A DNA stretch of 64,000 bases from an uncultured Coriobacteriaceae bacterium (GTDB lineage Bacteria > Actinomycetota > Coriobacteriia > Coriobacteriales > Atopobiaceae), in contig CADCPM010000023.1 of assembly GCA_902803315.1 (NCBI GenBank), positions 1 through 64,000 on the forward strand. Direction: 5' to 3'. Of the stretch, positions 57,710-58,651 are shown piece after piece. Positions within the stretch are counted from its first letter, which is position 1; each line of letters starts with the position of its first letter. The notes under the pieces are model-generated. The model had not been told where the DNA came from. It was given only the letters and a program-made list of their open reading frames with translations, and searched no databases. Position numbers and translations under genes: made by a program.

Positions 57710-57788
57710 GCCTGACTAAGGGACAGTCCCCAAGTTTGGGTTGGGAAAACCCAAACTTGGGGACTGTCCCTTAGTCAGGCTCGTTTTT
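57710..57788 (+). terminator. Intrinsic terminator built from a GGGGACAG-family palindrome
   Basis: Perfect 33-nt arms (57710-57742 and 57748-57780) pair around GGGAA. They contain GGGACAGTCCCC and AAGTTTGGGTT. The stem is followed directly by TCGTTTTTT, so on the plus strand it is a strong terminator for the glucosidase gene. It is the clearest case of a family (i) element with termination ability. Confidence 0.85.
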
Positions 57789-57820: not shown

Positions 57821-57928
57821 AAGGGTGGCCGAACTGCGCGTCTGCTGAGATAGGCGGGTCGCTCGTGCGTAGTCATCTACAACCTGATAGGAGCCGAACC
57901 AAAGGAGAAGACCATAGCCACCAGGAAA

Positions 57929-58564
57929 ATGAATGCCCAAACCACTAACTTCGACACCACCCCCAAGACGACCATCAACCCGACCGCTACCGCCACCGAA
58001 CTCAGCGGTGAGTCCCTGGACAAGGTGTCCGGCGGGAACGACCCCTCGTATGACCCCTCTGGATCTTGCCTCACGCCCGACACAAAGATTACCCTTGCCG
58101 ACGGTAGCTCCAAGCGTGTCGACAAGCTGACCGACGACGACATCCTGCTCGTTTGGGACTTCGACGCAGGCGCCCTCGCCAGCGCTCCCATCACGTTCTT
58201 CTACCGCGTACACGAGGAGGCTGAGGTCCTGCGCGTGAGCTTCTCGGATGGCACGAGCGTGGGCGTTGTGGACGAGCGCGTGTTCTTCGATCTAACCGAC
58301 CGCAAGTACGTGGCCATAAACAGCGCCGACCAGGAGAGCGAGCTCGCGGGCCATGCCTTCGCAAAGCTCGTGGACGGGCGCATCGAGGAGGTTACCCTCA
58401 CCTCCATTTGCCCGGATGGCACGACCGACAGCTACTACAGCCCCGTGTTGGAGGCTCACTTCAACTGCTTCGCCGAGGGCATGCTGAGCATGTCGGGCTT
58501 CCTCAAGGGCTTCTACAACGTCTTCGACCTCGAAGAGGGCGCGCTCCGCTATGACGCCGCATAG
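57929..58564 (+). CDS. Double-glycine leader peptide fused to a Hint (intein/hedgehog-like) domain
   Basis: The protein has 211 residues. The first 36 end in ATELSGESLDKVSGG, the classic double-glycine leader of class II bacteriocins and related peptides, which is cut by C39-peptidase ABC exporters. After a short spacer, Cys47 opens a Hint-type domain: GSCLTPDTKITLADGSSKRV, DKLTDDDILLVWD, VLRVSFSDGTSVGV, and near the end EAHFNCFAEGML. The usual block B T-x-x-H is missing (VVDERVFFD), and no His-Asn pair ends the domain, so self-cleavage may be impaired. No exporter or peptidase is adjacent. The ATG at 57929 has a weak site; AAAGGAG lies 6 nt before an in-frame ATA at 57914. Confidence 0.75.
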   Translation: MNAQTTNFDTTPKTTINPTATATELSGESLDKVSGGNDPSYDPSGSCLTPDTKITLADGSSKRVDKLTDDDILLVWDFDAGALASAPITFFYRVHEEAEVLRVSFSDGTSVGVVDERVFFDLTDRKYVAINSADQESELAGHAFAKLVDGRIEEVTLTSICPDGTTDSYYSPVLEAHFNCFAEGMLSMSGFLKGFYNVFDLEEGALRYDAA

Positions 58565-58604: not shown

Positions 58605-58651
58605 GTGACGGGGGACGTTTCTGTTGCGTGACAGAAACGTCCCCCTGCCAC
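58605..58651. repeat. GGGGGACGTTTCTGT palindrome
   Basis: GTGACGGGGGACGTTTCTGT pairs with ACAGAAACGTCCCCCTGCCAC around TGCGTG. It resembles the GGGGACAG dyads in layout (a GGGGGAC start and a variable inner arm) but has a different inner sequence. Confidence 0.75.

Follow-up and report, generated by a model that had tools for sequence, protein, structure and literature searches.

The window analysed here is a stretch of 64,000 nucleotides from the draft assembly of an uncultured Atopobiaceae bacterium (genome G000), and the gene under study is the damaged member of a small protein family (Table 1). The encoded protein begins MNAQTTNF; its leader, residues 1-36, ends TELSGESLDKVSGG and is followed by the linker NDPSYDPSGS and by Cys47, at which a Hint-like region starts. 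A preliminary description of this DNA had proposed that a double-glycine leader is fused directly to a Hint domain, and this arrangement is confirmed by the open reading frame, the leader statistics and the fold match. Synteny with the window gene is found only in the genome G065, where arylsulfotransferase, GH13, PAP2 and pyridine-nucleotide oxidoreductase genes are shared; no common neighbours were seen at the other three orthologue loci, the gene being an orphan outside this one syntenic pair. A long perfect palindrome (GGGACAGTCCCCAAGTTTGGG...CCCAAACTTGGGGACTGTCCC) lies between the GH13 and Hint genes, at 57714-57778 of the window, with a near copy at 465-516, whereas the palindrome found at the corresponding site of G065 is of another kind. 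The two window copies possibly belong to a small mobile or REP-like repeat family.

Table 1. Features of the Hint gene and its surroundings, in positions of the window
Feature	Position	Strand	Basis
Remaining open reading frame of the GG-leader/Hint protein, damaged copy, 211 aa	57929..58564	+	open reading frame, coordinates as in the preliminary description
Double-glycine leader, residues 1-36 (E-13 L-12 S-11 ... L-7 ... V-4 ... G-2 G-1)	57929..58036	+	consensus from PMC6959990 and PMC2887384
Linker/N-extein NDPSYDPSGS between the GG site and Cys1	58037..58066	+	family conservation, dN/dS mostly 0-0.2
Hint domain core, Cys47 (Cys1) to Ser189; Ser189 aligns with the intein terminal Asn; end is Met-Ser, not His-Asn	58067..58495	+	
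CGC (Arg) in place of the block-B His codon, which is CAC in the orthologue of the syntenic locus	58277..58279	+	
C-terminal tail remnant; 207 bp (69 codons) lost in frame at CGCCGC microhomology 58555-58560	58496..58561	+	alignment
Shine-Dalgarno-like AAAGGAG, spaced for the start codon position of the orthologues (now ATA), not for the present ATG	57901..57907	+	
ATA at the ATG start position of the orthologues (AAGGAG-6 nt-ATA GCC ACC)	57914..57916	+	
Hairpin 3' of the gene (GGGGGACGTTTCTGT...ACAGAAACGTCCCCC), kept in the syntenic orthologue; possible terminator	58608..58647	.	

In 429 kb of genomic regions of the same genus, from which the leader statistics were drawn, the double-glycine motif was tied to the N-terminal position in 10 of 1914 open reading frames, against 0.09 in shuffled frames, and the strict form of the motif gave 7 frames against 0. 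A chance occurrence is ruled out by the shuffled frames, and the motif being far above the shuffled expectation, the leader is real as a sequence feature. The other matches to the motif are typical leader peptides, some of them sharing stretches with C39 exporters. The leader positions that touch the C39 domain in PCAT1 are -12, -7, -4, -2 and -1 (PMC6959990). All five copies of the family present Leu or Ile at -12, Leu at -7, Val or Ile at -4 and Gly at -1, while Gly at -2 is found in four of the five, the orthologue of G074 having Ser in this position (SG for GG). The combination L(-12), L(-7), G(-2)G(-1) near the N-terminus is present in the window copy and three orthologues; G074 has I(-12) and S(-2). 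The expectation that homologues would keep the leader pattern in front of the Cys is thus borne out, with the single exception at -2, and the contact positions are kept although the leader region evolves fast (dN/dS about 0.5-1.3). The profiles TIGR03793 and TIGR03798 matched neither the window protein (P0001, up to E 10) nor the orthologues (up to E 1), two of which gave weak matches to TIGR01847 (bacteriocin_sig).

Additional precursors with double-glycine leaders were observed in the genus. The contig of the window (C23, about 76.6 kb; L012:14582-14752) carries a 56-aa Nif11/NHLP-like precursor ending AIAGG-SWYDCMNETW. In G062, about 2-3 kb 3' of the Hint gene, there are two such frames (L016:5773-6042 and L016:6665-6856), one with a Cys-rich cargo. 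Precursors at L090:3720-3929, L090:4588-4803 and L094:8515-8988, which share stretches with C39 exporters (G063, G062), are candidate new export substrates; one of this set is 157 aa long and has a Cys-rich cargo of about 77 aa.

The window copy alone shows weak Hint matches (TIGR01445, E = 2e-4, below the profile cut-off), and its model, made without an alignment, has a mean pLDDT of 34 and is uninformative. The orthologue P0004 is above the curated cut-off of TIGR01445 (intein_Nterm), with 29.5 vs 24.5 bits, and the family profile matches the BIL2 domain of Tetrahymena by sequence with an E of 1.6e-8. An orthologue modelled with a 15-sequence alignment presents a pLDDT of mostly about 90 over residues 52-195, the leader and the last 60 residues being poor. 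This model superposes on BIL2 (6y75) and on the DnaB intein (1mi8) with a Z of 18.5 each, and on hedgehog (1at0) with a Z of 17.6; Cys52 of the orthologue coincides with intein residue 1, and Ser194 with the terminal Asn. The Hint fold anticipated from the window sequence is therefore recovered by structure prediction with the orthologue.

Considering the intein motifs, blocks A, B (His only) and F are present and block G is absent. Cys1 is found in the four intact orthologues, in every phage relative and in the window copy. The block-B His is present in the same four orthologues and in every full-length phage relative, and its sole replacement among full-length members is that of the window copy. 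The preliminary description rightly called block B degenerate: the missing Thr of TxxH, which is Val in the Atopobiaceae copies, is a family trait, and the missing His (Arg117) is unique to the window copy. The lack of a terminal His-Asn, also correctly reported, is again a trait of the family, the pair being Met-Ser in 5/5 copies; no subfamily member has His-Asn here, the phage relatives showing Thr-Ser, Thr-Gly or Val-Ser in this region. The family presents neither the terminal His-Asn with a +1 Cys, Ser or Thr that marks inteins, nor the conserved C-terminal His-Asn by which A-type BIL domains are defined (PMC7765530).

The conservation of Cys1 and of the block-B His in the intact orthologues and the full-length phage relatives points to retained N-S acyl-shift chemistry, and it argues against a reused, non-catalytic scaffold, one of the roles suggested earlier, as the ancestral state. 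Judged from these residues, the subfamily keeps the needs of the N-S acyl shift without those of splicing, and cannot splice. The further suggestion of a toxin pre-domain finds no toxin domain after the Hint domain in any homologue and no toxin family among the Pfam or NCBIfam matches of the family; the C-terminal tail, whose pLDDT is low, resembles that of phage Hint proteins.

Four of the 15 remaining genomes in the genus (Atopobiaceae of rumen or gut) carry an orthologue. Among 140 genomes from the family and a class sample of 398 Coriobacteriia genomes, no other genus yielded one. A scan of the GTDB collection limited to close relatives gave four loci, all in MAGs labelled Atopobiaceae or Coriobacteriaceae; absence outside the genus in this collection holds for such relatives, and as far as they go the gene family appears restricted to the genus. 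Weak profile matches elsewhere in Actinomycetota are mostly to the N-terminal part of the Hint profile and lie inside much longer frames. No convincing relatives were found by tblastn in plasmids or INPHARED phages, within the limited sensitivity of BLAST. The intact orthologues have 275-287 aa, compared with 211 aa for the window copy, and keep the linker as DPSxDPSG. Pairwise dN/dS among the intact copies is about 0.15-0.25 for the Hint domain, 0.04-0.19 for the tail and mostly 0-0.2 for the linker (few sites), which shows that these copies are under purifying selection.

The comparison with the syntenic gene of G065 shows what has happened to the window copy. It has ATA at the conserved start ATG behind AAGGAG, and in block B the codon CAC has become CGC, which turns His into Arg. 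Between CGCCGC repeats, 207 bp have been cleanly deleted in frame, by which the 69 codons after Tyr-Asp-Ala-Ala are gone and the stop is kept. At sites fixed in the other four copies it carries ten private amino-acid changes, and the Hint part accounts for seven of these (A to S, E to K, D to A, H to Y, H to R at the block-B His, R to C, and S to L). The lost codons were sought out of frame downstream in the window, with no match, and a second copy that could rescue the function was sought in G000, which holds one copy only at a genome completeness of 87%. The simplest interpretation is decay, and the window copy is probably a broken member of the family. The single-base lesions could be assembly errors, since the window sequence comes from a draft assembly; the deletion could hardly be one. 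Separately, a tract of about 190 bp (about 58222-58418 of the window) is identical to G065 except for the His codon, the rest of the gene being much more diverged, and looks like the product of recombination between species.

Activity can survive without the block-B His in some cases, as a bulky residue at -1 can compensate for it (PMC6333167). The residue at -1 in the window copy is Ser, and with Arg for the block-B His, no tail and a weak start, we infer that this copy is probably inactive or nearly so. Alternatively, it could be a shortened but working variant that is selected as it stands and serves as a secreted scaffold with a Hint fold and no autoprocessing. Its frame is still open, the deletion is in frame with the stop kept, and the Hint part has a dN/dS of 0.13 against the nearest orthologue, a value that reflects mostly the shared history of a functional gene. 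Against this stand the ATA in the start position, with the Shine-Dalgarno sequence now about 20 nt from the next ATG, the seven private Hint changes at otherwise fixed sites, the absence of the only His that all full-length relatives retain and the loss of a tail that is strongly constrained elsewhere, and we regard selection for a shortened form as unlikely. The non-catalytic state of the window copy was likely reached by decay, not by reuse.

As for the exporter, G000 holds two C39 domains, in proteins above the equivalog cut-off of TIGR03796 (NHLP exporter, NHLM_micro_ABC1), each adjoining a protein whose best match is TIGR03797, slightly below its cut-off. At least one C39 domain is present in each of the 16 genomes of the genus. 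The exporters are encoded elsewhere in the genomes, and none stands beside the Hint gene in any genome. This pairing by presence is weak evidence, because genomes without the Hint gene have C39 exporters too.

For the intact family we infer the following course of events. The double-glycine leader would be recognised by an ABC exporter of the NHLP type whose gene lies elsewhere in the genome; its C39 peptidase domain would cut after Gly(-1), and the cargo would be exported. The mature protein would consist of a conserved peptide of 10-11 residues (xxDPSYDPSGS), the Hint domain from Cys1 and a C-terminal tail some 90 residues long. Aided by the block-B His, Cys1 would then make the N-S acyl shift that yields a thioester. 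Because there is no terminal His-Asn and no splicing, the thioester would be resolved by water or an outside nucleophile, and the Hint domain would thereby release the short peptide or pass it on, in the manner of hedgehog or B-type BIL domains. That the window gene is a decaying member of an exported Hint family with C39 export, a Cys1 thioester and peptide release or transfer is the explanation we find best, and we hold it with moderate confidence. The points against it are the lack of an adjacent exporter gene, SG in G074, Val for the block-B Thr and a cargo (about 245 aa) that exceeds the usual C39 cargo. More tentatively, the intact family might be a two-cut device, in which C39 cuts after GG and the exported Hint domain at Cys1, the peptide being released or attached by its C-terminus to an extracellular acceptor; this is conceivable though not probable.

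Among known systems, BIL2 of the Tetrahymena BUBL1 polyubiquitin locus (6y75, 6tmm) has Cys1 and the block-B His in common with the family, and the Hint fold matches along the entire core. BIL2 attaches its N-extein to lysine with no need for ATP (PMC8616854), and this published acyl transfer from Cys1 to an outside lysine is a precedent for the transfer that may occur in the window family. BIL2 differs in keeping the terminal Asn (the solved chain carries N143A) and in its ubiquitin-like flanks, whereas the core of the window family ends Met-Ser and is preceded by a peptide of ten residues that follows a GG leader. B-type BIL domains, compared with the family by motifs, have the intein motifs except the C-terminal one; N-terminal cleavage is expected, and despite lacking the C-terminal motif B-type BILs still cleave at the N-terminus (PMC7765530). 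Their C-terminal tail is different, and a short peptide cargo and a GG leader are not described for BILs in the open-access literature examined. The hedgehog Hog domain (1at0) is alike in its fold and in having Cys1 without a terminal Asn, and its N-terminal cargo is transferred from the thioester, as published for hedgehog; in the window family no sterol-recognition region was identified and the cargo is a short peptide. The precursors of NHLP/Nif11 and class II bacteriocin systems (TIGR03793, TIGR03798, TIGR01847) share the leader end E-L-S/T-x-x-x-L-x-x-V-x-G-G, and NHLM exporters (TIGR03796/TIGR03797) as in these systems also occur in G000. Unlike these precursors, the family carries a Hint protein of about 245 aa instead of a short variable core peptide, has no adjacent exporter, and its leader is without a Nif11/NHase domain.

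Outside the genus, the Hint domains nearest to the family stand at the C-terminal ends of phage proteins, many of which resemble tail fibres in their N-terminal parts. About 30 distinct proteins of this kind are found at IMG/VR loci (L023-L038 and L096-L125), the successive scans having given 5, then 13, then 35 loci in overlapping sets. They are 25-32% identical to the orthologues and share with them D-x-[LI]-[LKR]-V-W-[DN]-F-D, H-x-N-x-[FY]A, the lack of a terminal His-Asn and the C-terminal tail. The phage proteins differ in being viral and in carrying, in place of the GG leader, large beta-rich, collagen or lectin N-terminal parts; these parts range from 9 to over 1600 aa and include Laminin_G_3 (lectin-like) domains and collagen repeats, as in tail fibres. 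One of them (L033/L114, on a 418-kb contig) is a nearly naked Hint domain with about 9 residues before Cys1. PHROGs gave no family for five phage or bacterial members, no Pfam or PHROG model was above its cut-off for the phage Hint part among the proteins tested, and similar phage folds in UniProt are annotated only as 'Hint domain containing protein'.

It could be supposed, from this kinship and the common tail, that phage tail proteins are the source of the Hint domain, with its phage-like role kept (to attach or trim a structural protein), the GG motif being incidental; the subfamily is, moreover, in no other Coriobacteriia genome sampled. However, no phage genes are among the neighbours typed, the leader retains its contact positions within a region that evolves fast and the linker is too short for a tail domain, which leaves a retained phage role doubtful. 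A phage origin of the Hint domain itself is compatible with the exported family that we favour. An intracellular RiPP-type precursor, with a leader that recruits a modifying enzyme, the ten-residue peptide as core and the Hint domain as a self-removed follower, would suit the conserved linker and a leader end resembling the NHLP/Nif11 leaders of the genus, but it seems improbable considering that no modifying enzyme gene is among the neighbours typed, that the core is conserved where RiPP cores are usually hypervariable, and that the leader is without the long helical segment of Nif11/NHLP leaders.

In the 2012 survey of polymorphic toxins, HINT domains are listed with T2SS, T5SS, T7SS and TcdB/TcaC export, C39/double-glycine export being absent (PMC3482391), and in the open-access literature we found no published description that joins a double-glycine leader or C39 export with a Hint domain. 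The locus also illustrates that a striking open reading frame can be a decaying copy, the intact orthologues being the ones to study. The phage branch raises the question of why a tail fibre needs an acyl-transfer domain. If the two-cut reading were true, the family would be a bacterial system that dispenses peptides without ATP and is built on a Hint domain of phage type. Should the intact proteins act as proposed for the exported family, gut bacteria would export a self-activating domain that frees or conjugates a short peptide without an extra enzyme, and this would be a simple system to test and possibly to use.
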